From positions 1-24,480 of the forward strand of contig JAGLYR010000019.1 of the NCBI GenBank assembly GCA_023132135.1: a stretch of 24,480 nt of DNA. The letters run 5' to 3'. The stretch comes from Candidatus Eiseniibacteriota bacterium. GTDB taxonomy: Bacteria > Arandabacterota > Arandabacteria > JAGLYR01. A program made the translations under genes and the position numbers. How positions within the stretch are numbered: the first letter of the stretch is position 1; the number at the start of each line of letters is the position of its first letter. Shown in pieces: positions 35-18,988 of the stretch. The notes beneath the pieces were generated by a model. The model searched no databases and had not been told where the DNA came from. It saw nothing but the letters and a program-made list of their open reading frames with translations.

Positions 35-94
35 CTCTATTGCTCTGCCTGGACTGTGTGCGAATCCATCCGGATTCGTGCATAGTCCAGGCTA
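35..94 (-). repeat. Palindromic intergenic element, copy A
   Basis: Arms at 47-67 and 72-92 pair around a 4-base loop with about three mismatches in 21. The element begins exactly at the TAG stop (92-94) of the glycosyltransferase gene. Beyond the stem, + strand 35-52 matches the 18-bp tail shared with the copies near 16,624 and 19,015 (CTCYATTGCTCYGCCTGG; this copy differs at two Y positions). There is no T-run after the stem on the transcribed strand, so a classical intrinsic terminator is not supported. It resembles REP-type repeats. Bases 1-34 show only AT-richer sequence with short TCTATT-like motifs and no gene. Confidence 0.7.
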
Positions 95-1177
95 CGGCAT
101 CCATCCCCGGTCCCGGTAAAGACCGTAGAGCGCACTCACCACCGAAGCCGCGTCGTGATACTTCACAACCCACCCCCGCCCTTCCTTCCCCTTCCGCTCA
201 CGGTAGCCGCGATCTTCGACCAGCTCAATCAGCTTCTGCTTCAGCGTCTCCCGATTTACATTGATGAAGGGATGGTCCGGCATGAAGGCTTCGAGATCCT
301 CTCGCATCTCCGTACACGTGGCGATTTCCATCGAGAGTGTCTCCAGGGAGTTCACACCGTAGCCCACCCCACCCATGTCCCCTACCTGGTCGATGGCGAT
401 ATCGCACGTCATCTTGGTTTCCAACGCCTCCTGGTGGGATCGTCCCTCAATCAGGACAAGTTCCACCGGGTAATCTCTTTCCAACTCCTTCACCTGACGG
501 ATGATGATATCGCTCCCCTTGAATCGGCGGTTCCTCGGCGCGTGGCAAACGCGGACTCTCTCACTTCCCTCCTGGCGTTTCGGCTGAAACCTCTCCGTCT
601 CGAAAGGCATGTAGAAGAACTGGATGCTCGAATGCAGAGCCAAGTGGTCAAACTCGCAGGTCAGATTAAAATCGCTGAGCGCGTCCACCTCGGGAATCAG
701 GCCCCGTTCCCGCAGGTCCGTTCCCAGGTAGTAGCACACGAGTTTCTTGCCCCTGCGTTTCAGCTCCTTGAGAATCCGGCAATCGCGGAAGAAGCCGATG
801 CCCGACTCCAGATGGTAGATGTCATAGTTCAGGAGATCGTATCGTTCGATGGCTTCGTAGATCGGACGTTCCCACAGCCGATCCCGGAGACGGAACAGAA
901 CGTTTTCGAAGGGACTCCGCGGCTTCCATACGCGAAGACCCTCTTCCGTCGACCACTTGGGTCGGCCCCTGTGCAGCCAGGACACAATGTCCTTCATCCT
1001 CATGTCCAGTCTCGTCCCCTTGACAAAGGGGAGATGGAGACAGATGTCCTCATCGTACCCCTGCGCGCACTGGGCCAGAGTCACCATGCGGCTCTCGTGG
1101 CCGAAGCGGCGATGCATCTTGACAAAGGTCGAAGCCGTGCCGACCCAGTTCTGGTCGCAAAGATGAAGAATCCGCAT
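92..1177 (-). CDS. GT-B fold glycosyltransferase (GT4-like)
   Basis: Predicted cytoplasmic sugar transferase of 361 residues. The N-terminus MRILHLCDQNWVGTAS resembles the first beta strand and glycine loop of GT-B enzymes. Near residues 280-300, GVNSLETLSMEIATCTE resembles the donor-binding acidic region of GT4 enzymes, though the usual E-x7-E is not clear-cut. An open frame continues upstream to 1246, but that stretch overlaps the amidohydrolase gene and does not look like a GT start, so ATG at 1177 was chosen; this leaves 16 bases after the upstream TAG. The Shine-Dalgarno is weak (GGA six bases before ATG). This is the last gene in the window, followed directly by palindromic element A. 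Fold assignment is fairly safe; donor and acceptor are unknown. Confidence 0.75.
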   Translation of the reverse strand: MRILHLCDQNWVGTASTFVKMHRRFGHESRMVTLAQCAQGYDEDICLHLPFVKGTRLDMRMKDIVSWLHRGRPKWSTEEGLRVWKPRSPFENVLFRLRDRLWERPIYEAIERYDLLNYDIYHLESGIGFFRDCRILKELKRRGKKLVCYYLGTDLRERGLIPEVDALSDFNLTCEFDHLALHSSIQFFYMPFETERFQPKRQEGSERVRVCHAPRNRRFKGSDIIIRQVKELERDYPVELVLIEGRSHQEALETKMTCDIAIDQVGDMGGVGYGVNSLETLSMEIATCTEMREDLEAFMPDHPFINVNRETLKQKLIELVEDRGYRERKGKEGRGWVVKYHDAASVVSALYGLYRDRGWMP

Positions 1178-1193: not shown

Positions 1194-1919
1194 CTAGCCG
1201 GAAATGACCGACAAGACCGTCTCCCGGCAAATCCACCGCCGCTCATTCTCCGCGAGGTCCAGCGCGTCGATTACTCCCAGGTACATCTTCGGATGCCCAA
1301 TTGGGTAGTCACTGCCGAAGATGACCCGCTCGGCGCCCAGATCATCTATCACCCTGCGAATCAACCAGTATTCCCGAATTCCTTCCATCCCGAGCCACAC
1401 ATTCCGGAGGTTCCCGGAAGAGAGCGCCTGGCAGGTGGCCTTTACCAGATCCGGTTGGTCTCCTCCCATGTGAGCGAAGACAAACCGGACCCCGGGGTGT
1501 TTTCGCGCCGCTTCCAGCGCGTACCGATAGCTGGCCATTTCCTGCCACCGACCGCAGTGAACCAGCACAGGCAGGTTCCGCTCCTCCGCATACTCCAGGA
1601 AAGGCTCGCACCGCTGATCCGTGATCCGGATCTCGTCGCATGACGGGTGGAACTTGAGACCTGAGACCCTCGAACCCCACTCTTCCAGTCGCTGCAGTCC
1701 GCCTTTGTCAGCAGGGTTGACCCATGCGAAAAACCAGTACCGGAGCCGGGCGCGTTCGATTTCCCGAAGCACAAGCTCGTTGTCCCGCAGGTCGGTGGCC
1801 GTCACCACGGCTCCCTCGAAACCACAGCTGCCCAGCACCTCATCGGTACGATCCAGCCCGACTTCCAGGCCAAAGAAACGTTCGCTCCACCTGCCGATGT
1901 GAATATGTCCATCAATCAT
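1194..1919 (-). CDS. Amidohydrolase family 2 metallohydrolase
   Basis: A 241-residue TIM-barrel hydrolase of the Amidohydro_2 (COG2159) type. Visible metal and active-site residues are H5 and H7 in the N-terminal HIH motif, K89/H91 in GLKFHP, H121 in VLVHCG, H150 in FAHMGG and D204 in FGSDYP, so the site looks complete. Known relatives are decarboxylases and hydrolases; the substrate here cannot be read from sequence. In this cluster a role in trimming or deacylating a sugar intermediate is possible but only inferred. The start was chosen at 1919 because the HIH motif must sit at the very N-terminus. That ATG is the last of four near-identical ATGs in a 37-bp tandem array. The ancestral start probably overlapped the FemAB-like gene's stop at 2027-2030. 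A TTG at 1952 would add 11 residues encoded entirely by repeat DNA. Confidence 0.82.
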   Translation of the reverse strand: MIDGHIHIGRWSERFFGLEVGLDRTDEVLGSCGFEGAVVTATDLRDNELVLREIERARLRYWFFAWVNPADKGGLQRLEEWGSRVSGLKFHPSCDEIRITDQRCEPFLEYAEERNLPVLVHCGRWQEMASYRYALEAARKHPGVRFVFAHMGGDQPDLVKATCQALSSGNLRNVWLGMEGIREYWLIRRVIDDLGAERVIFGSDYPIGHPKMYLGVIDALDLAENERRWICRETVLSVISG

Positions 1920-2052
1920 CCTGACACCATTCCCAACCGATATGTCCATCAATCATCCCAACACCATTCCCAACCGATATGTCCATCAATCATCCTGACA
2001 CCATTCCCAACCGATATGCCCATCAATCATCCCGACACTATTCCCAACTGAT
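1905..2052 (-). repeat. Four-copy 37-bp tandem repeat over a translation start
   Basis: Units lie at 1905-1941, 1942-1978, 1979-2015 and 2016-2052. Units 1 and 3 are identical, unit 2 differs at two bases, and unit 4 (nearest the upstream gene) differs at four. On the minus strand every unit carries GGGATGATTGATGG or CAGGATGATTGATGG, so the array holds ATGs at 2030, 1993, 1956 and 1919. Only the ATG at 1919 opens the amidohydrolase. The other three each open a mini-ORF of 14 codons (MIDGHIGWEWC, then QDD or WDD) ending at 1986, 1949 and 1912. Each mini-ORF ends in a TGA that overlaps the next start within ATGATTGA. The FemAB-like gene ends inside unit 4 (TGA at 2027-2029). Confidence 0.95.
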
Positions 2053-2998
2053 ATGCCTCCCTCAGAAACGGGGTCGAACCCCACTTCCCCTTGAACCGGA
2101 GAAGGCCGGGATTGGGCACCCCCCCCAGGGAACTGGTGCCCAGATCATAGTAGGCGGCGCCCCACCTGATCGCGGCAAGGATCGACTCCGCCATCACTGC
2201 GTCCGCCGGCCGATACCGACCGGCGCCCTCCACATGGCACAGGTAGAAGTTCATCACCACGCGCTGATTGCAGAGAAAAATGAGAGCACCACCCAACACA
2301 TCTCCCTCCCGGTAGGCCAGCAGCAACTTGAGACGATCCGGAACCAGTTCGAACAACCGGCGGAGCTGGGCCAGTGTGTGAGTGGGCCTGGCTCCATGCC
2401 TCAACCGATTTTCCTCGAGAATCGGGTAGAACAGATCGAGGTCTCCCGATTCACGGACCACCATGCCTGCCTCCTGTGATTTCCGAACCGCCTTCCGGGC
2501 GCTGGCCTGCCATTGTTCCTTTACTCCGTCCTCCCCCCCCTGAAGGGGAATGACGTCCGTTACCTCGTAGCGGAATCTGTCGAATCCCTTTGACAGCAGA
2601 ACAAATTCCATCAGCTGATTGGGACTCCGCATGTAGATACCCGGAGCATGCGTCAGCTCAATCCCGTCAATCTTCTGCTCCCGGCACCATACCAACAGGC
2701 TGTCGACGAGAGCCTCGACAGTCTCGTAGCTCTCGCCCCCGCGCAGAACGAAACCACCAAAGGACCCGCCCCAAGGCGACACAAGAATCACCTCACCGTC
2801 CCGATGCATCAGGGCTCCCGGCAGAAGCGCCAGAGTTCTGCCGGAGCGCCGGAACAGGAGAGACCGCGAATCCACATCTCCCGGCTCATGGTAGGCCAGG
2901 AATTTCAAACTGTGAAAGAGGGTGCCGTTGTTCGAGTCCTCCACGAACTCGTCCCATGCACCTGCATCTTCGGCCGGTACTTCGACGATTTCAATCAT
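2027..2998 (-). CDS. FemAB/GNAT-like acyltransferase
   Basis: A 323-residue protein resembling the FemAB-like half of the GNAT superfamily (Acetyltransf_6 type). Supporting segments are QASARKAVRKSQEAGM near residues 160-175, LGGALIFLCNQRVVMNFYLC in the core, and a C-terminal YYDLGTSSLGGVPNPGLLRF followed by KGKWG, which resembles the substrate-closing end of lipid II aminoacyltransferases and related enzymes. Family members transfer an acyl or aminoacyl group to an amine. Next to an aminotransferase and a formyltransferase, an amino sugar is a plausible acceptor, but this is inference. ATG at 2998 was chosen because upstream frame lies in the formyltransferase gene; GGAG sits 13 bases before it. 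The stop lies inside the 37-bp array, so the last few residues are encoded by repeat unit 4. Confidence 0.75.
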   Translation of the reverse strand: MIEIVEVPAEDAGAWDEFVEDSNNGTLFHSLKFLAYHEPGDVDSRSLLFRRSGRTLALLPGALMHRDGEVILVSPWGGSFGGFVLRGGESYETVEALVDSLLVWCREQKIDGIELTHAPGIYMRSPNQLMEFVLLSKGFDRFRYEVTDVIPLQGGEDGVKEQWQASARKAVRKSQEAGMVVRESGDLDLFYPILEENRLRHGARPTHTLAQLRRLFELVPDRLKLLLAYREGDVLGGALIFLCNQRVVMNFYLCHVEGAGRYRPADAVMAESILAAIRWGAAYYDLGTSSLGGVPNPGLLRFKGKWGSTPFLREAYQLGIVSG

Positions 2999-3032: not shown

Positions 3033-3977
3033 TTACCATTCCAATTCCGAGGGATCCAGTCCAAGGGAAACCCCGGCGCGCCGCAACACCTTCCATGCCA
3101 GCCTGGGCTCCCCGGAATCACGCTGAACCTCCTCGACCAGCAGGTATCCGGACCCTGTGGAGACGACCACTCCTTTCCCAGGCCGACAGCCAACCACGGT
3201 TCCAGGGAAACAGTCCGGCAGTTCGCTCGGGAGGCAGCTCGTCCTCCAGACGGTAAGCTTCCGTCCCCGGTACAGAGTCCACGCACCCGGGTAGGGCCTC
3301 GACAGGGCCCGCACCTGATCGTGAATCCGGGCGGCGGGCCTCGCCCAGTCAATCCGGGCGTGGGCCGGAGTGACAAGCGGGAAGCACATGGCCCGTTCTT
3401 CATCCTGGGGTGTACCCTCAACCGGGCCTGCCTCCATCCGATCTACGACTTCCATGACAAGTCCCGGGATATCCAACTGAATCCGCTGGTACAGCTCACC
3501 CGACGTTTCGTTTTCCCCGATCGCGTATTTCCGTTGGGCGATGACGGGTCCCGAATCCACACCCTCATCGATGACGTGAATGGAGAGCCCCGCTTCTTTG
3601 TCCCCGTTCATGATAGCCCACGCCAAGGGTGCGCGGCCGCGGTATCGCGGCAATAGTCCCGCATGGATGTTGATGAAACCCCGACGCGGGATTTCCAGCA
3701 GGGACGGCCGGAGAATCGACAGGTACCCCACTACTACTCCCAGATCGACGTTCCATCCGCGAAACGTGGCGAGGAACTCCTCGTCGATCTCTTCCGGGGT
3801 TTCCAGGGGAACCCCGGCCTCGCCCGCCAGCGCGCGCACCCGTGCAGACCATTCGGGATCAGAGAGAACGCTGTCCTCCGGGTGCGCAACGATCCCTACT
3901 ACCTCCCTGCCCCCGGAGAGCATCGCTTCCAGCGGTCCGCAGGCAATGGACCTGTGTCCGAAGTAGGCAATCCTCAT
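3033..3977 (-). CDS. Formyltransferase, probably sugar N-formyltransferase
   Basis: A 314-residue enzyme with the Fmt/ArnA-type fold using a 10-formyltetrahydrofolate donor. The catalytic triad is visible as N103 and H105 in NIHAGLLPRYRG and D141 in DEGVDSGPVI. The C-terminal third (from about residue 207, ARIDWARPAARIHDQ) resembles the OB-fold domain of methionyl-tRNA formyltransferase. Housekeeping Fmt is normally beside peptide deformylase. Here the gene overlaps a DegT aminotransferase by 4 bases (ATGA at 3974-3977), so N-formylation of a nucleotide-linked amino sugar is the better guess. GAGG eight bases before the ATG supports the start. The stop is TAA at 3033-3035. Family is secure; substrate is inferred from context. 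Confidence 0.85.
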   Translation of the reverse strand: MRIAYFGHRSIACGPLEAMLSGGREVVGIVAHPEDSVLSDPEWSARVRALAGEAGVPLETPEEIDEEFLATFRGWNVDLGVVVGYLSILRPSLLEIPRRGFINIHAGLLPRYRGRAPLAWAIMNGDKEAGLSIHVIDEGVDSGPVIAQRKYAIGENETSGELYQRIQLDIPGLVMEVVDRMEAGPVEGTPQDEERAMCFPLVTPAHARIDWARPAARIHDQVRALSRPYPGAWTLYRGRKLTVWRTSCLPSELPDCFPGTVVGCRPGKGVVVSTGSGYLLVEEVQRDSGEPRLAWKVLRRAGVSLGLDPSELEW

Positions 3978-5086
3978 CCCCGCGCCCTCACCGCCTCACT
4001 CAATGCATCGCACACCTTCGCCACGTCTCCCGTCGTCATCGCAGGGTACAGAGGGAGAGACAGCGTCTTCCGGAAAGCCCAGTCCGAGACAGGCAGCTGT
4101 CCCTCCCGGTATCCGTACTCCCGCCGGAACAGAGGTTCCCGGTGCAGCGCGTAGGTCCCAATGGTCGTTTCCACTCCCAGATCCCTCATCCTCTCGATGA
4201 GCCCATCTCGCTCCACGTCATCCCCCACACTCACTACAAGAGATTGGTGACAGTCCCGGCCGTGTTCGAAGGAGGGTAGCATCAGCACCCCTTCAACTCC
4301 GCCCAGCCGGGCGCGGTATTGCTTCACAATCTCTTCCTTGCGCGCGATGATTTCATCCAGCCGTCCGAGTTGGCCCAACCCCAACACCGCGCCAATCTCC
4401 GTCATGCGGTAGTTGAAACCGGCCGAGGTGAATTGCAGACGCCCCGACGCCGTGGGATCGGCGCCGTGGGATCGGAGACTGCGAACCCGCCGGCACAGAT
4501 CGCGATCCGACGAGGCAATCGCCCCTCCCTCGCCTGTGGTGATGCTCTTCCTGGGATGGAAACTGAAACAGCCAGCACTGCCCAGCGTCCCGCACTTGGC
4601 GCCGTTGACGTGCGAGCCCAGAGCGCAGGCTGCATCTTCTATGATAGCCAGCCCATTCTCGCGGGCAACCTTCCCGATTGCATCCATCACGACCGGCCGG
4701 CCGAAAGCGTGGACCGGAAGGATGGCCCGCGCGCGGGGCGTGACACATGCCCGCGCTGCCTCCGGATCCATGTTGAGGGTGCCTCGCTCCACATCCACAA
4801 GGACGGGGACCGCACCGCAGTGAATCACAGCATTGGCCGTGGCTGGAAACGTGAAATCGGAAACGAGAACCTCATCGCCCGCACCAATTCCTGAGGCCAG
4901 GAGCGCCAGATGAAGAGCGGCGGTCCCGGACCCGACCGCAACCACCTCACCATCTCCAACATAGCCGGCCAGGGCCTCCTCGAATTCACCGACCTTCCGT
5001 CCCTGGACCAGGAAACCCGAGGCGAGTACTTCGTCGACGGCTCGGATATCCTCCTGGGCAATCTCCGGCACCGTGAGCCTAATCAT
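3974..5086 (-). CDS. DegT/DnrJ/EryC1 sugar aminotransferase
   Basis: A 370-residue PLP enzyme that would transfer an amino group, usually from glutamate, to a keto-sugar nucleotide. Visible features are SGTAALHLAL at 53-62 (phosphate-binding loop), EDAACALGS at 150-158 with D151 facing the pyridine nitrogen, and FSFHPRKSITTGEGG with Schiff-base K180. A C-terminal LPLYPAMTTGDV is typical of the family, and the length is normal. The gene overlaps the SDR gene upstream by 8 bases and the formyltransferase downstream by 4. GGAGG lies just before the ATG. The adjacent SDR plus this enzyme and the formyltransferase form a logical keto-sugar, amino-sugar, formamido-sugar series. Which carbon is aminated is not visible. 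Confidence 0.93.
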   Translation of the reverse strand: MIRLTVPEIAQEDIRAVDEVLASGFLVQGRKVGEFEEALAGYVGDGEVVAVGSGTAALHLALLASGIGAGDEVLVSDFTFPATANAVIHCGAVPVLVDVERGTLNMDPEAARACVTPRARAILPVHAFGRPVVMDAIGKVARENGLAIIEDAACALGSHVNGAKCGTLGSAGCFSFHPRKSITTGEGGAIASSDRDLCRRVRSLRSHGADPTASGRLQFTSAGFNYRMTEIGAVLGLGQLGRLDEIIARKEEIVKQYRARLGGVEGVLMLPSFEHGRDCHQSLVVSVGDDVERDGLIERMRDLGVETTIGTYALHREPLFRREYGYREGQLPVSDWAFRKTLSLPLYPAMTTGDVAKVCDALSEAVRARG

Positions 5087-6047
5087 CCTCCTCCATTCCT
5101 ATCCGCCGGTACCACTCGATGGTCCTGAGGAGTCCTTCTTCGAGATCAACCTGCGGCCTGTACCCGAGGATATTCTGCGCTTTCTTGATGGAGGGGATTC
5201 TCAGTTCAACATCCGGGTAGCCGATCTCGTCGAACACGACAGGTGAGTCCGACGCCGAGAGTCGTTTGATCTGTTCGGCCAGGTGCGCCGTCGTAATGGT
5301 GGCTCTCGGATTGCCAATGTTGAAAACGTGACCCACGGCCTCTTCCTTTTCCAGGCAGAGCAGCGCCCCGGCCACCATGTCATCCACGTAGCACCACGAA
5401 CGGATCTGGTTCCCGTCGCCGTGGATCAGGATCTCCTTACCCTTGAGAGCCCGCACGACGAAAACGTGGATAGCCCCGATCCCGACCTGCTGCGGCCCGT
5501 ACACGTTGAAAGGACGGATGGTCACGGTCTGGATCCCGTGCTCCTTGTGATAGCTGTAGGTCATGTGTTCTGCGGCCAACTTGCTCACCGCATAGGTCCA
5601 GCGGGATTCACCAACCTCTCCCAGCTGAGTGGCGGTGTGCTCCTCCGCTTTGTAGACGTAGCTTCCGAAGACCTCACTTGTAGAAAAATCCACCATGCGG
5701 CTAACCTTGTGCTCCACGCAGGCATCCAGTACGTTCAGGGTGCCGAAGAGATTGACTCGCATGCAGTGACTCGGCATGGACATGACCATATCGACACCGG
5801 CAATGGCCGCCAGGTGCACAACGATATGACTTCCTGCAATGGCCTTGCTCACGGCTTCACGGTCCAGAACATCTCCCCAGATGACCGTGAGATTGGCATG
5901 GTTCTCGAGACTCGCATGCTTCAGAGCGTTGCGGTGGCCATTGTCGTAGATCACAACCTCGTTTTTCTCCACAAGTCTCTTTGCGAGCTGGGACCCGATG
6001 AACCCGGCGCCCCCGGTCAGCACAATTCGTTTGCCTTCTATGGCCAT
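5079..6047 (-). CDS. NAD-dependent epimerase/dehydratase (extended SDR)
   Basis: A 322-residue nucleotide-sugar enzyme with a Rossmann fold. TGGAGFIGS at 11-19 binds NAD, FSTSEVFG at 121-128 carries the catalytic Ser/Thr, and Y152 with K156 (YAVSK) form the YxxxK pair. RPFNVYGP and RSWCYVDDMV are typical of UDP-sugar and dTDP-sugar SDRs. It could be a 4-epimerase, 4,6-dehydratase or decarboxylase; the motifs do not separate these with confidence. GAGG seven bases before ATG supports 6047. It heads the SDR, aminotransferase, formyltransferase, FemAB-like block and overlaps the aminotransferase by 8 bases, which suggests it supplies or reshapes that enzyme's substrate. Confidence 0.9.
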   Translation of the reverse strand: MAIEGKRIVLTGGAGFIGSQLAKRLVEKNEVVIYDNGHRNALKHASLENHANLTVIWGDVLDREAVSKAIAGSHIVVHLAAIAGVDMVMSMPSHCMRVNLFGTLNVLDACVEHKVSRMVDFSTSEVFGSYVYKAEEHTATQLGEVGESRWTYAVSKLAAEHMTYSYHKEHGIQTVTIRPFNVYGPQQVGIGAIHVFVVRALKGKEILIHGDGNQIRSWCYVDDMVAGALLCLEKEEAVGHVFNIGNPRATITTAHLAEQIKRLSASDSPVVFDEIGYPDVELRIPSIKKAQNILGYRPQVDLEEGLLRTIEWYRRIGMEEDD

Positions 6048-11069: not shown

Positions 11070-13570
11070 TCCGGGCCACTCCCCTTCCTGGAAAACCGGC
11101 GTCCCAGGTGAACAACCATCCACCCAAGGACAAGCACACCGAAAGCTCCGCTCACGATCCCCCCTGCAACAAGTGGTTCGGAACGATATCGGAGCACGAC
11201 CTCGTGGGATCCTGCCGGTACGGGGACCGCCCGGAACGCGCAGTCACACCGCAAAACCGGCACCGCACGGCCATCAACCGACCCGCGCCAGTACGGGAAA
11301 TAGTTGTCACCGAGAAAAAGAAGCCCCGGTGCTTCGGTCCGGGTACCAACGCGAATCTCATTGGGCCCATAGGCCAGAACTTCTGCCTGGACAGGATCCC
11401 GGCTCTGATCGGCCGTCAGTCCCGGCGGATGTTCTGCGAGAATCAGGGTACGGCGATAGTCGAATTCCGGTTCCAGCAACCGCTCCATCGCGTCCGCACC
11501 TTGCGGAATCACCTCGTAGTCGAACACCACGAAGGCTCTCGGAAGGACGGTCCGGTTCCGGTACAGGTGCAGATCCCCCATGGTCATGACTTCCTCAAAA
11601 GCTCCCCCGGTAAGCCGACGACCCGTTATCACGTACTTCGTGTTGTACAGATCGAGGATCCGCGGATTCAGGAGACGGCCCTCACCCGTGATTTCATCGT
11701 ACACTCGAAGCCGGTTATCGTGAAACCCGTTCAGAGTCTGAAAACCGAAAATCGGGAGGTAGTTCCGGTCGTACATCGTGCTGCCCGTCAGCGGCAGCAC
11801 GCGAAACAGGTCCTCATCCTTGGCCATGGTCTGAATTATCGGATCCCGGCGGACGAAGTCCTCCACCCGCACGTACTGGATGAAGTCCCGGTCCAACGGC
11901 CATACCGACGCCACAACGAGCAGCCCCAACCCGGCCATCGCCCACCGCACGCGACCTCTCAACCGTACAGCTACCCAGGAGCAGAACGCCGTTCCCGCCA
12001 ACAGGACTATCGCCACCATCAGACCACGCAGGAACTTCGGGTAGTTGGCCTCGAGAATGGACCGCTTTGGGCCCAAGTCGGGATACAAACCACGATTCCA
12101 CAACTCAATTGCCTGCTCCCGCCCTACCGCCAAGACGATGAGAACAACCACGCCCCCCATTGTTGTCCACAGGAGATTCCGGACAATGCGATCTCCCTCC
12201 GGCAACCCGGCGATGGACTGAAGTCGGTCTGCACCCACGCCTGCCAGAGCAGCGCTGGCAAACAGAAAAAGCATCATGATCGTGCTGGGGGCCCGAAAGA
12301 ACTCGACTCCCGGAATCACGTGGAAGAAAACCCGGTAGGCGGGAGTGTGCGCTCCAACCGAATAGAAAAGGGCAAAGACCGAGATCAACAGAAAGAAGGC
12401 CAGGTCGCGCGCCCGGACGATGGCAAAGATAAAACCGGCGAGGCTGAGAACAACCACAATCCCCTGCACCGCGGAAGTGGTCACCATTGCCACGAAGAAC
12501 AGCAGGAGAGAGGCGACGAACACCGCGCCGGCGCGTTGAGACCACCGATGGCACAGGGCGACTGCGGCCAGTATGAGCACGATGAAACCGGGCGCTTCGC
12601 AGTTCAGCTTGAATGGATTCCGACCCCAGTAGTCTCCGAGGTAATGCACAAACTGCGGGATGACCAGGGAGACGATCTCCTCTGGATGGAGCGACCACGA
12701 CGTGGCGAACTCGTAGCTCACACCTCCGGCCCGCGGCGAGAAACCCTTGGTGTAGATGTACGACGGCAGGAACTGGACCAACCCCAACGCGAACCCGATT
12801 CCGATTCCCAGAACAAAGAGAACGGCCGGGCGCAAGCAAACCTTCCAGGACCCTTCCCCCCGACCCACCTCCACGAGCCGGAAGACGACGTACAGGCCCA
12901 GACCCCAGAGGGCGTACGCCGCCATCTGAACGTGCGACGTGAGAAACATCAGTCCCACACTTCCACCCATCATCGCGAAGTGGAACATCCTCCGGGTCTG
13001 AAGACCTTTCTCCAGGCAGTAGAAGGCCAGCGGGAGCAGCGCCGTAACGTACAGCTTTGCGTCATGACCGGCGTACATGAGGGACACAATATACGGGGCG
13101 AACATGTAGCCCATCCCGCCCACTCCGGAGGCCAGCCGTTCCAGGCCGCGGGCCCGGAGAAAGGCGTACATGCAGATTCCGGCCAGAAAAATGTGCAGCA
13201 CGAGTTTCGCCCCGATGAAGCGGTGGACGGGCATGATGAAATTCATGAGGGTCGCGGGGTAGAGGGCGGGGCCGTGCAACGCGTCGATGAAGGGAAGGCC
13301 TCCCAGGATGTACGGATTCCAGAGGGGTAGACCGCCTCCCGACACCAGGAACTCCGTGTACACCTTGCGGGCCATGTACCCCCCGGGTATGATGTCGGTC
13401 CCGAAGAACATGCGGTTGGAGAACAGGAACCCGTGGAACAGGATCACCGTCAGCACAGCAAGGACGGCAGCGACGAGGAGATCCTGCTGCGCGCCCGAGA
13501 AACCCGCTGTTTCCTCCCTGTGAAACTCACGCGCGCCACGGCCCGCGCCCCCTTTTTCCGACCTACCCAC
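11066..13570 (-). CDS. YfhO-family integral membrane GT-C-like protein
   Basis: About 834 residues with a dozen or more hydrophobic segments over the first 570 residues and a soluble C-terminal domain. MFFGTDIIPGGYMARK followed by WNPYILGGLPFIDALHGPAL is typical of YfhO-type proteins, as is the C-terminal pattern with DNYFPYWRGSVDGRAVPVL then FRAVPVPAGSHEVVLRYR. B. subtilis YfhO is implicated in glycosylating lipoteichoic acid from a lipid-linked sugar; activity here is inferred. The start is uncertain. No ATG with a good SD lies near the hydrophobic core. GTG at 13570 overlaps the wecB stop and is preceded by an 11-G tract. ATG at 13666 would add 32 residues that look like wecB read in another frame. 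Loss of one G would fuse it to WecB. Confidence 0.8.
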   Translation of the reverse strand: MGRSEKGGAGRGAREFHREETAGFSGAQQDLLVAAVLAVLTVILFHGFLFSNRMFFGTDIIPGGYMARKVYTEFLVSGGGLPLWNPYILGGLPFIDALHGPALYPATLMNFIMPVHRFIGAKLVLHIFLAGICMYAFLRARGLERLASGVGGMGYMFAPYIVSLMYAGHDAKLYVTALLPLAFYCLEKGLQTRRMFHFAMMGGSVGLMFLTSHVQMAAYALWGLGLYVVFRLVEVGRGEGSWKVCLRPAVLFVLGIGIGFALGLVQFLPSYIYTKGFSPRAGGVSYEFATSWSLHPEEIVSLVIPQFVHYLGDYWGRNPFKLNCEAPGFIVLILAAVALCHRWSQRAGAVFVASLLLFFVAMVTTSAVQGIVVVLSLAGFIFAIVRARDLAFFLLISVFALFYSVGAHTPAYRVFFHVIPGVEFFRAPSTIMMLFLFASAALAGVGADRLQSIAGLPEGDRIVRNLLWTTMGGVVVLIVLAVGREQAIELWNRGLYPDLGPKRSILEANYPKFLRGLMVAIVLLAGTAFCSWVAVRLRGRVRWAMAGLGLLVVASVWPLDRDFIQYVRVEDFVRRDPIIQTMAKDEDLFRVLPLTGSTMYDRNYLPIFGFQTLNGFHDNRLRVYDEITGEGRLLNPRILDLYNTKYVITGRRLTGGAFEEVMTMGDLHLYRNRTVLPRAFVVFDYEVIPQGADAMERLLEPEFDYRRTLILAEHPPGLTADQSRDPVQAEVLAYGPNEIRVGTRTEAPGLLFLGDNYFPYWRGSVDGRAVPVLRCDCAFRAVPVPAGSHEVVLRYRSEPLVAGGIVSGAFGVLVLGWMVVHLGRRFSRKGSGPE

Positions 13571-14750
13571 CGTGCGACCCCCCCCCCCGGGAAACCCGGC
13601 GTTGAGGCGGAGCGGCAAACCGGCGAAGAATCGCCCGGACAATGCGCTCGGCCGCGCGCCCGTCACCGTACGGGTTCCGCTTTCTTACCATGGCGCGGTA
13701 GGCGCTCTTCGATCTCAGGAGTTCGAGCGCCGCGTTCCTGATCTTCTGCCGTGATGTCCCCACCAGGAGCGCGGTGCCCGCCTCCACGGCTTCCGGGCGT
13801 TCGGTGACTTCCCGGATCACCAGCACCGGTTTCCCCAGGGACGGCGCTTCCTCCTGGATGCCACCGGAATCGGTGATGATCAAGTTACAGCGTTTCATCA
13901 GGTAGACAAAGCCCTCATAGTTCTGTGGATCGATTAGGTGAACCCTGTTCACCCCGTCCAGCTCAGGGCGAACGGTTTCCTGGACAGCCGGATTGAGGTG
14001 TACGGGGAAAACAACCTCAGCATTCGGCTCTTCGGCAACGATGTCCCGGAGAGCACGACAGACGTCTCGCAGCTTCGCCCCCCAGGACTCCCGCCTATGC
14101 GCGGTGACCAGGATCATTTTCCCCGCCGGTTGCATCCGGGGAAGACCAACCACACTCTCCCGCCGCGCGCGCCGCGCCGTGTCCAGGAGCGCGTCGATAA
14201 CGGTGTTCCCCGTCTTCACAATGTCCCTCGGCCGGACGCCTTCTTTCTTCAGAGCCAGCACCGCCGCGCGCGTTGGAGCAAAGTGGAGATCCGTCAGAAC
14301 ACTCGTCAGACGGCGGTTGATCTCTTCCGGATACGGGTTCATCCTGCAGCCGGTCCTGAGGCCCGCCTCCACGTGCCCCACCGGGATACGGGAGTAGCCG
14401 GCGGCCAGCGCTCCGGCAAAGGTGCTGGTGGTGTCTCCCTGCACCAGCACAAGGTCGGGAGCCTCCTCGCGAATGACCTTCTCAAGCCCCAGCAGTACAC
14501 GGGACGTCGTCTGAAACAGCGTCTGCCTCGGACTCATGACATCCAGATCGTAGTCCGGCCGAATGGAGAAAATCCTCAGCATCTGGTCGACCATCTCCCT
14601 GTGCTGAGCTGTCACCACGATCAGCGGATGGGTCCCGCGCGCCCGTCCAAGCGCTTTGATGACAGGCGCCATCTTGATGGCTTCGGGGCGGGTCCCCACC
14701 ACAGTCATGACCTTCAGATCACCCAGGCGTGCACTACCGCTCTTTTGCAT
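13563..14750 (-). CDS. wecB: UDP-N-acetylglucosamine 2-epimerase (non-hydrolysing)
   Basis: A 395-residue enzyme interconverting UDP-GlcNAc and UDP-ManNAc. GTRPEAIKMAPVI at 19-31 is the family signature. Catalytic residues fit D106 (QGDTTST), E129 (GHVEAGLRT), an acid in PEE at 141-143 and H218 (TAHRRE); TDSGGIQEEAP near 293-303 binds UDP. The family's usual length is about 370-380; the extra residues are 12 N-terminal ones and a Gly/Arg-rich tail encoded over the poly-G tract. ATG at 14750 has GGGAG seven bases upstream and overlaps the GT4 gene by 17 bases; ATG at 14708 lies too close to the signature. No WecC-type dehydrogenase is in the window, so the product may be used as ManNAc. Confidence 0.96.
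   Translation of the reverse strand: MQKSGSARLGDLKVMTVVGTRPEAIKMAPVIKALGRARGTHPLIVVTAQHREMVDQMLRIFSIRPDYDLDVMSPRQTLFQTTSRVLLGLEKVIREEAPDLVLVQGDTTSTFAGALAAGYSRIPVGHVEAGLRTGCRMNPYPEEINRRLTSVLTDLHFAPTRAAVLALKKEGVRPRDIVKTGNTVIDALLDTARRARRESVVGLPRMQPAGKMILVTAHRRESWGAKLRDVCRALRDIVAEEPNAEVVFPVHLNPAVQETVRPELDGVNRVHLIDPQNYEGFVYLMKRCNLIITDSGGIQEEAPSLGKPVLVIREVTERPEAVEAGTALLVGTSRQKIRNAALELLRSKSAYRAMVRKRNPYGDGRAAERIVRAILRRFAAPPQRRVSRGGGSHGG
13578..13588 (-). repeat. 11-base G homopolymer near the wecB 3' end
   Basis: Eleven consecutive C on the + strand (G on the coding strand) lie five codons before the wecB TAG. As written, WecB ends RVSRGGGSHGG. With ten G the frame runs on as GRTVGRSEKG, which is the YfhO-like frame, giving one fused product. 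With twelve G a third frame runs roughly 40 codons before a stop. The tract also lies just upstream of the presumed GTG start of the YfhO-like gene. It could be a slippage site or a sequencing error. Confidence 0.9.
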
Positions 14751-17330: not shown

Positions 17331-18988
17331 GGCTCTTCCTCCCCCTCCCAATCCATGAATCGCATGACGATGGTCCGGGGTTCCTGCTCCGTGACATGGA
17401 CCACGGGAAACTTGTCCGGATCCGAGAGAATCGCCGGCACGAGGTAGCGAGCACTCGTTCCCGTCCACTGGAACTGATCCACGACGATGTGGGTCGCGCC
17501 CACTTCTCTGAACCCCCCCACCACTTCCTGCGGATCCTTCGAGAACTTGTAGCCCATGGCCCGCCGGCCGCTCGTCAGGTAGAACAGATAGGGTTTCCGG
17601 CACACAAAGACACTCCCCGCCGGAGTTTCGTCCCGCGCCCAGAACGCCGCGTTGAAATAGCTCTTCCAGTCCGGGGAATACCCGCGGCCCGCGCGCGCCT
17701 CGGCCCGATCCGCCAGAAGGGTCCCCATCACCATCACTGCGGCCAACCCGGCGACAACACCCTCCTGCATCCCCTTCCAGCCTCGTCGCGTGAACCACGA
17801 CAGGATAGCCCACAGACCGGTCAGCAGACAGAAAAACAGCAACGGGATCACCGGCACAATGAACCGCACCGACGCCCAGACGCTGGGCCACACGGCGCAG
17901 ATTCCAAGAAAACCGAGGAGATAGAGATCCGCAACCGTGCGGTGGCGCAGCAGACGATAGGCGAGACCCACGGCAGTCAGAGAGCTTACCACCAACCAGA
18001 GCAGCTGCACCGCCGGCCCCGGCGAAGCGCCCTCGGCGCCCGTAAAGGGAACGAGCGTCTGCGGGACAATCTGGTAGAAATAGATTTTCGCGTTGCCCCC
18101 GATCCGGGAAAGGAAATCCACTGCCGAAAGCATCCCCTCATAGGGCTTGTAGGGATCTTTCATCAGAAAATAGTCGAAGTAGGTCTGACCGCCGCCTATG
18201 CGATGCGATCGCAGCGCCCAGGGAAGGGCCAGCAGCACCACCCCTCCGATGAATCCGAAGGCCCATTTTGTCTTGCGCCGAAACAGGAGAACCAGGAACA
18301 CACCCGCGGCCAGAGCAATTCCCACCGCCTTGAGGTAGTAGGCCGTCATCACCAGGGCAAGGGCCACCGGCACCCACACACGTTCGGGCCACCGGTCCTC
18401 GCCCAAAGCAATCCATCCCAGAGCAAGGAAAGACACGAAGAGATACGGCACCTCGGCCAGAATGATACTGCTGTGGCACAGAATATCCGGGCTCAGGACC
18501 GCCAGAACCGCGGCCCCGACCGCCACGACGGGTTCGCTGCCCTTTCGGAAAACCGGATAGTACAGGGCAGCCGCTCCCACACACGCCACGACTCCCACCA
18601 GCTTCAACGCCATCAAGCTTTCCCGGGACACGGCCATCACGGCCGCCAGGATCAGTGGAAACATGAAGGGATACTTCATATCCGGCTTCTGGTCCGGCGA
18701 GTTGATATGACTCAATCCCTTTCCGGCCAGGAGAGATTTGCCCAGAACAACGTACTGCGCATTGTCCCCGATGGTGGATAGAAGCGGGTTGAAAAACAAC
18801 CCGCACAAGCCCGCGGCAACCAGTCCCAGGACAAGAGGCACACTCCAGGGCTTCCCGGCCCACGTCCGGACTCGACGCAGGGCGCCGTGCTCACCCTCCC
18901 GCGCTCCCTTTCCCTTGTCCACGCGGAGGCGTTTTCGCCTGTCGCCCCGGTTTCCCTTCTTCCGGGCATTGCCGCCAGCTTGATCCAT
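17327..18988 (-). CDS. GT-C (GT39/ArnT-like) integral membrane glycosyltransferase
   Basis: About 553 residues. After a 45-residue, strongly basic N-terminus, the first membrane helix (VPLVLGLVAAGLCGLFFNPL) is followed by the loop IGDNAQYVVLGKSLLAGKGL, whose acidic residue resembles the GT-C catalytic Asp/Glu, and HINSPDQKPDMKYPFMFPLI matches the usual ArnT/GT39 loop. Roughly ten hydrophobic helices follow, then a periplasmic domain of about 130 residues. It would transfer sugar from a polyprenyl-phosphate donor outside the cytoplasmic membrane. ATG at 18988 (MDQAGG) lies in the conserved tail of element C with GGAG ten bases upstream. An in-frame ATG at 19054 sits in the hairpin and is less likely. 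It is coupled to the following GT2 by a TTGA overlap. Confidence 0.82.
   Translation of the reverse strand: MDQAGGNARKKGNRGDRRKRLRVDKGKGAREGEHGALRRVRTWAGKPWSVPLVLGLVAAGLCGLFFNPLLSTIGDNAQYVVLGKSLLAGKGLSHINSPDQKPDMKYPFMFPLILAAVMAVSRESLMALKLVGVVACVGAAALYYPVFRKGSEPVVAVGAAVLAVLSPDILCHSSIILAEVPYLFVSFLALGWIALGEDRWPERVWVPVALALVMTAYYLKAVGIALAAGVFLVLLFRRKTKWAFGFIGGVVLLALPWALRSHRIGGGQTYFDYFLMKDPYKPYEGMLSAVDFLSRIGGNAKIYFYQIVPQTLVPFTGAEGASPGPAVQLLWLVVSSLTAVGLAYRLLRHRTVADLYLLGFLGICAVWPSVWASVRFIVPVIPLLFFCLLTGLWAILSWFTRRGWKGMQEGVVAGLAAVMVMGTLLADRAEARAGRGYSPDWKSYFNAAFWARDETPAGSVFVCRKPYLFYLTSGRRAMGYKFSKDPQEVVGGFREVGATHIVVDQFQWTGTSARYLVPAILSDPDKFPVVHVTEQEPRTIVMRFMDWEGEEEP

Follow-up and report, generated by a model that had tools for sequence, protein, structure and literature searches.

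The stretch of DNA analysed here (the window, 24,480 nucleotides of a contig from a Candidatus Eiseniibacteriota bacterium) contains a tandem array between a FemAB-like gene and an amidohydrolase gene. All genes called in the cluster around the array lie on the minus strand. The features at the junction are as follows.

2027..2998, minus strand: FemAB-like / GNAT acyltransferase gene (Pfam Acetyltransf_6 5e-9, FemAB 6e-5)
1903..2055, minus strand: tandem array, 37 bp x 4.1, extending over the stop of the FemAB-like gene and the start of the amidohydrolase (TRF)
1194..1919, minus strand: amidohydrolase (Amidohydro_2; Pfam 1.8e-25), with the ancestral ATG 1919 in the fourth unit
92..1177, minus strand: next downstream gene of the cluster (no Pfam hit)

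Both the FemAB-like and the amidohydrolase proteins are intact. The amidohydrolase start aligns with the MIIDGHIH of relatives, and the HxH motif and further shared residues are preserved. The FemAB-like stop is ancestral because the C-terminus aligns with the ends of the relatives' proteins. These two alignments therefore place the array exactly between two intact proteins. Further upstream, at 3033-5086 of the window, a formyltransferase gene lies between a DegT aminotransferase gene, which it overlaps by 4 nt, and the FemAB-like gene. In several relatives an aminotransferase-like ORF immediately precedes FemAB and the formyltransferase is absent.

TRF reports one strong array at this junction (period 37, 4.1 copies, 93% matches, score 264), 153 bp long. 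The head-to-tail arrangement of near-identical units of tens of bp is that of a minisatellite. Four copies with 93% identity are far beyond chance, and the observation of an array at 1903-2055 is confirmed as real. An earlier interpretation made from the letters alone (the sequence-only reading) had described four 37-bp units over the junction, and TRF and the unit listing agree with it.

2054-2018, minus strand: unit 1
2017-1981, minus strand: unit 2
1980-1944, minus strand: unit 3
1943-1907, minus strand: unit 4

The last FemAB-like codons and the TGA stop (2029-2027) are inside unit 1, and the amidohydrolase is entered from unit 4. Units 2 and 4 are identical; two neighbouring bases set unit 3 apart from them, and four bases unit 1. 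At unit positions 21-22 (within 2054-1907) unit 1 reads CG, units 2 and 4 read CA and unit 3 reads TG. CA and TG are the two products expected of a C-to-T change at one CpG on either strand, which may be chance. The motif GGCATAT, previously taken to be common to the unit boundaries, occurs at the first boundaries only; the others read GGACATAT, and what all of them share is the 5-bp CATAT. The presence of CATAT at both unit ends would fit an origin by slippage.

Other identities for the array were considered and rejected. A CRISPR or a dispersed element is ruled out by the lack of spacers and of any second copy, the array sequence occurring once in the whole genome. An RNA element is ruled out as well, with no Rfam match at the array and ordinary mRNA folding (z = 0.92). 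Promoter-like sites are absent within the array, which rules out a repeated promoter. No relative was found in the viral contigs searched.

The units multiply the start site into a ladder of short ORFs. The ATGs at 2030, 1993 and 1956 begin 14-codon frames whose TGA stops reach 8 nt into the next start (ATGATTGA), and the first of these ATGs overlaps the FemAB-like stop as ATGA, all as the sequence-only reading had it. A second ATG, which that reading missed, is present in every unit seven bases on (2023, 1986, 1949 and 1912). The two series (A and B) are listed below.

1986..2030, minus strand: mini-ORF A1, MIDGHIGWEWCQDD then stop; start overlaps the FemAB stop (ATGA)
1949..1993, minus strand: mini-ORF A2, MIDGHIGWEWCWDD then stop; 8-nt overlap with the A1 stop
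1912..1956, minus strand: mini-ORF A3, MIDGHIGWEWCQDD then stop; ends 8 nt into the amidohydrolase start
1949..2023, minus strand: second-series ORF B1, 24 codons; stop overlaps ATG 1949 as TGATG
1912..1986, minus strand: second-series ORF B2, 24 codons; ATG overlaps the A1 stop as TGATG
1194..1949, minus strand: second-series start B3, in frame, giving the amidohydrolase with a 10-aa N-terminal extension (MDISVGNGVR); ATG 1949 overlaps the A2/B1 stop as TGATG
1802..1912, minus strand: second-series start B4, 36 codons, off-frame

Stop/start overlaps of 4 or 1 nt, as in termination-reinitiation coupled pairs, occur between the FemAB stop and ATG 2030 (-4) and between the mini-ORF stops and ATGs 1986, 1949 and 1912 (-1, TGATG). 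ATG 2023 is located 3 nt past the FemAB-like stop. The ancestral amidohydrolase start at 1919 is reached through an 8-nt overlap only. Up to four reinitiations had been proposed for ribosomes travelling from FemAB to the enzyme. Four are possible, but the number ranges from two to four because the second series, with its 1-nt overlaps, offers shorter routes. The shortest uses 2023 and then 1949 (two reinitiations), and other routes take three or four. Some of the shorter routes would yield an N-terminally extended amidohydrolase, the predicted N-termini being MIDGHIH versus MDISVGNGVRMIDGHIH. The off-frame ATG 1912 may divert some ribosomes from the amidohydrolase.

The history of the junction was examined in eight genomes of the phylum including the source, and the relatives compared include Candidatus Eisenbacteria bins. 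Six of the seven other genomes encode the amidohydrolase (49-55% identity), in each case directly behind a FemAB-like gene. The nearest relatives at this level of protein identity (49-55%) belong to other families. The FemAB/amidohydrolase junction is single-copy in all six of these same-class relatives with the pair. Three of them have a 4-nt overlap (TTGA, ATGA and GTGA), and the other three show, in one genome each, a short gap, a 7-nt overlap or a junction of the TAATG type. The pair also occurs in a candidate division TA06 genome, again single-copy, with a short gap between the genes. The comparison of copy number that had been suggested as a check thus gives a single copy in all seven relatives and an array in the source genome alone. 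This upholds the idea of a single-copy ancestor with a simple overlap that was later expanded, and a single-copy, tightly coupled ancestral junction is well supported by these comparisons.

The regularity of the ladder follows largely from the local sequence. Within 8 nt of the start, the context ATGATTGATGG offers a TGA in each of the two other frames. Whenever the duplicated length is not divisible by three, every extra frame is therefore closed at the following unit. Duplication to four copies, with lengths of 25-60 bp, was simulated at thirty 4-nt overlaps of the same genome, closure being scored within 20 nt. Every extra frame closed near the next start in 29% (3n+1), 99% (3n+2) and 18% (3n) of cases. 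It had been pointed out that start and stop are recreated each time although 37 is not a multiple of three; this is true but unremarkable given the 29% for 3n+1. The ladder is mostly mechanical and by itself no evidence of design.

Arrays of this kind are not confined to the window. The sample scanned covers 1.40 Mb of the 3.40-Mb assembly (41%), with genes called by codon usage and arrays defined by 28-50-bp units and a score of at least 60, a size window picked after viewing the data. At least eight arrays lie between co-directional genes; their units measure 35, 35, 36, 37, 38, 39, 40 and 40 bp. Co-directional junctions make up 6.1% of the sequence scanned, yet they hold 8 of the 16 arrays of 28-50 bp; the junction mask slightly favours long gaps. 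A smaller sample of 649 kb had suggested that the array in the window was the sole junction array, which was overturned by the larger sample and better gene calls. The seven other junction arrays are given here by locus and contig, with gene names outside the window read off translations without a family search.

L120 (C50), 11486-11656: 39 bp x 4.4, before an hdrA-like gene
L145 (C223), 13955-14097: 40 bp x 3.6, between a pilC-like gene and the next gene
L118 (C48), 3872-3978: 35 bp x 3.1
L045 (C1), 17368-17468: 36 bp x 2.8, between an ABC ATPase-like gene and the next gene
L171 (C223), 13992-14069: 38 bp x 2.1, behind a secretin-like gene
L167 (C65), 2200-2276: 40 bp x 1.9, clpP/clpX
L131 (C129), 5081-5151: 35 bp x 2.0, behind a recombinase-like gene

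The unit sequences of the eight junction arrays are unrelated to each other. CATAT fits slippage for the array in the window, but several of the others have only 1-2 bp of such overlap at their ends. The copies within an array range from identical (L171) down to 85% alike (L120 and L145), and junction arrays of different ages therefore coexist. Short-ORF chains recur in various forms. In L118 the upstream gene stops as ATGA. Two 12-codon ORFs (MSQWRAKASNRP) come next, both of which close as ATGA, and the ladder ends with MSQ and a stop, about 8 nt before the next start. In L131 the duplicated start opens MKYFKQQPRGKR, which closes as ATGA on the second start. L045 has an in-frame leader that ends as GTGA on the next gene, and L145 has a short ORF in each unit with a 4-nt gap to the next. 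Inspection of the unit sequences of L171 and L167 gave no start/stop chain. That several of the eight keep a short-ORF chain linking both genes may reflect selection for coupling.

The hdrA-like gene behind the L120 array (11676-14168) is interrupted by an in-frame TGA (MDCSI-TGA-ILGPKM). All seven other phylum genomes share this TGA in the corresponding position, and it probably encodes selenocysteine. A GC-rich hairpin lies about 20 nt past it, with ordinary folding energy (z -0.53).

The reading frame separates two groups of arrays. All six in-gene arrays of 28-50 bp have units that are multiples of three (chance about 0.0014), whereas the junction arrays represent all three phases. This is what a mutational process would leave once reading frame had acted as a filter, and it speaks against assembly error. 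At orthologous junctions in relatives no array was found at any of 26 loci (6 clpX, 7 pilC, 7 hdrA and 6 amidohydrolase loci), one of the hdrA loci having little upstream sequence. As far as the compared genomes reach, the junction arrays appear to be lineage-specific. Ku-dependent end joining was considered as the source of the duplications and rejected, with Ku found in none of the eight phylum genomes and the control detected. Two further arrays were noted in the sample. One is an in-frame array of 39 bp x 2.2 (L170, 1137-1221) in the last codons of a gene, before a 4-nt overlap with a prfA-like gene. The other is an in-gene array of 354-bp units in 2.7 copies (L150, 4851-5800, contig C228).

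Gain or loss of units during short-read assembly would offer another explanation. The assembly consists of 345 contigs and the length of the array (153 bp) is close to that of a short read, which leaves its exact copy number uncertain. However, the units bear distinct substitutions, and the flanking genes adjoin in relatives too. The preservation of frame by in-gene arrays and the clustering of the others at junctions are not expected of assembly errors, and unit lengths of 35 to 40 bp are unlike a fixed k-mer overlap. We consider an assembly artefact very improbable.

The expected effect of the array is on translation. Among coupling overlaps, ATGA and TGATG are the two most frequent (PMC6728339, PMC10666635), and 13 of 14 overlap pairs tested in two model organisms are coupled (PMC6728339). 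In E. coli and Haloferax reinitiation drops steeply with stop-start distance, and in three E. coli pairs a distance of 38 nt removed 80-90% of it or all of it (PMC10666635). ATG 1919 now lies 107 nt from the FemAB-like stop, and coupling must therefore run through the mini-ORFs or give way to de novo starts. Shine-Dalgarno (SD) pairing is weak for the starts within the array, which reach -4.0 to -5.2 kcal/mol, while the median of 28 other 4-nt overlaps in the genome is -7.1. The output of amidohydrolase relative to FemAB would be lower, because ribosomes would have to reinitiate two to four times or start de novo with weak SD, and it would also be noisier.

It is alternatively conceivable that the array has no functional consequence, because de novo starts at 1919 or 1949 or an efficient crossing leave output unchanged. 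The E. coli bioBF pair is uncoupled despite an overlap and a very weak SD (PMC6728339), the SD match of the last array start is slightly better than that of the first (-5.2 versus -4.2 kcal/mol), and the ordinary mRNA structure reported above fits as well. Against this are the weakness of the SD at 1919 relative to other overlap starts of the same genome and the coupling of nearly all the tested overlap pairs. An array without consequence seems to us improbable.

A literature search brought up next to nothing that would serve as a direct precedent. The array is best compared with four known systems. Mycobacterial MIRU (senX3-regX3 and other operon junctions) resemble it in having repeats of tens of bp, variable in tandem copy number, between operon genes. 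MIRU ORFs reportedly overlap the stop and start of the flanking genes. The array studied here likewise lies between co-directional operon genes, and its small ORFs reach the stop of one neighbour and the start of the other. In contrast, MIRU are one sequence family at about 41 loci, whereas each array described here is local to its junction and occurs once. No shared repeat sequence of the MIRU type was found; only this locus matches genome-wide, and the units of the other arrays are unrelated to it. Supply 1997, as cited in PMC2734929, proposed that MIRU act in the differential translation of genes in a polycistronic operon.

Termination-reinitiation overlaps provide the ATGA of the FemAB stop and ATG 2030 and the TGATG of the mini-ORF stops and second-series ATGs. 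Known cases are one-step and involve two genes, whereas here several dummy ORFs lie between, together with a route through an 8-nt overlap. The TAACTGA repeats of Beggiatoaceae are also short direct repeats at start codons with a proposed translational role (PMC4679880), but they are one 7-bp sequence at many loci, unlike the locus-specific units of 35-40 bp, which may contain start and stop codons. VNTR3239 / ETR-F, between rnc and fpg in the M. tuberculosis complex, is like the present array a lineage-specific array at a co-directional junction. The junction is only 1-6 bp in several other mycobacteria, and the array varies in length, which correlates with downstream mRNA level (PMC2734929). 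It differs in its complex 55- and 79-bp units and expanded spacer, and it is not known to have a stop/start ladder. It also comes with expression data.

The mycobacterial case favours a view of the junction as a contingency locus under selection, in which slippage changes copy number and the reinitiation steps set amidohydrolase output (the rheostat of the sequence-only reading). The near-identical units would favour changes in copy number, and the stop/start chain from FemAB to the amidohydrolase is unbroken. Yet the simulation makes the ladder mechanically expected, similar arrays precede housekeeping genes such as clpX, and the second ATG series blurs a dial of one step per unit. A tunable rheostat is possible; a contingency locus under selection we regard as unlikely. 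A broader proposal is that an active process with preferred duplications of 35-40 bp keeps seeding operon junctions with arrays of start-stop mini-ORFs and makes a genome-wide set of heritable, reversible translational dials from local sequence and not from a shared element. We hold this to be doubtful.

We favour, as the likely explanation, a lineage-specific tandem duplication filtered by reading frame that probably loosens coupling. A 37-bp tandem duplication would by chance have covered the FemAB-like/amidohydrolase stop/start overlap and then expanded to four units, giving a minisatellite. The lineage appears prone to tandem duplications of 35-40 bp, a preferred size that was noticed after the fact and from 41% of one genome. 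Such duplications would survive mainly where no protein is damaged, at co-directional junctions in any phase and within genes only as multiples of three. The ladder would be the mechanical outcome of copying a start with TGA in both other frames. Translation of the amidohydrolase, ancestrally coupled in one step, would now depend on two to four reinitiations or on de novo starts with weak SD; its output relative to FemAB should fall, and part of the protein should carry the 10-aa extension. Copy number itself is presumably not under selection. The sequence-only reading is thus partly supported, and the array looks like the product of a genome-wide duplication habit and not a purpose-built dial.

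Arrays at coupled junctions are known as mycobacterial strain-typing markers, with shared sequence or long spacers. The arrays described here are made locally; their units vary little in length, and they occupy many operon junctions in a single uncultured lineage. Should the size preference hold genome-wide, it would point to a specific duplication mechanism. The junctions, with two to four copies and all three phases represented, form a natural series on the passage of ribosomes over stacked stop/start sites.
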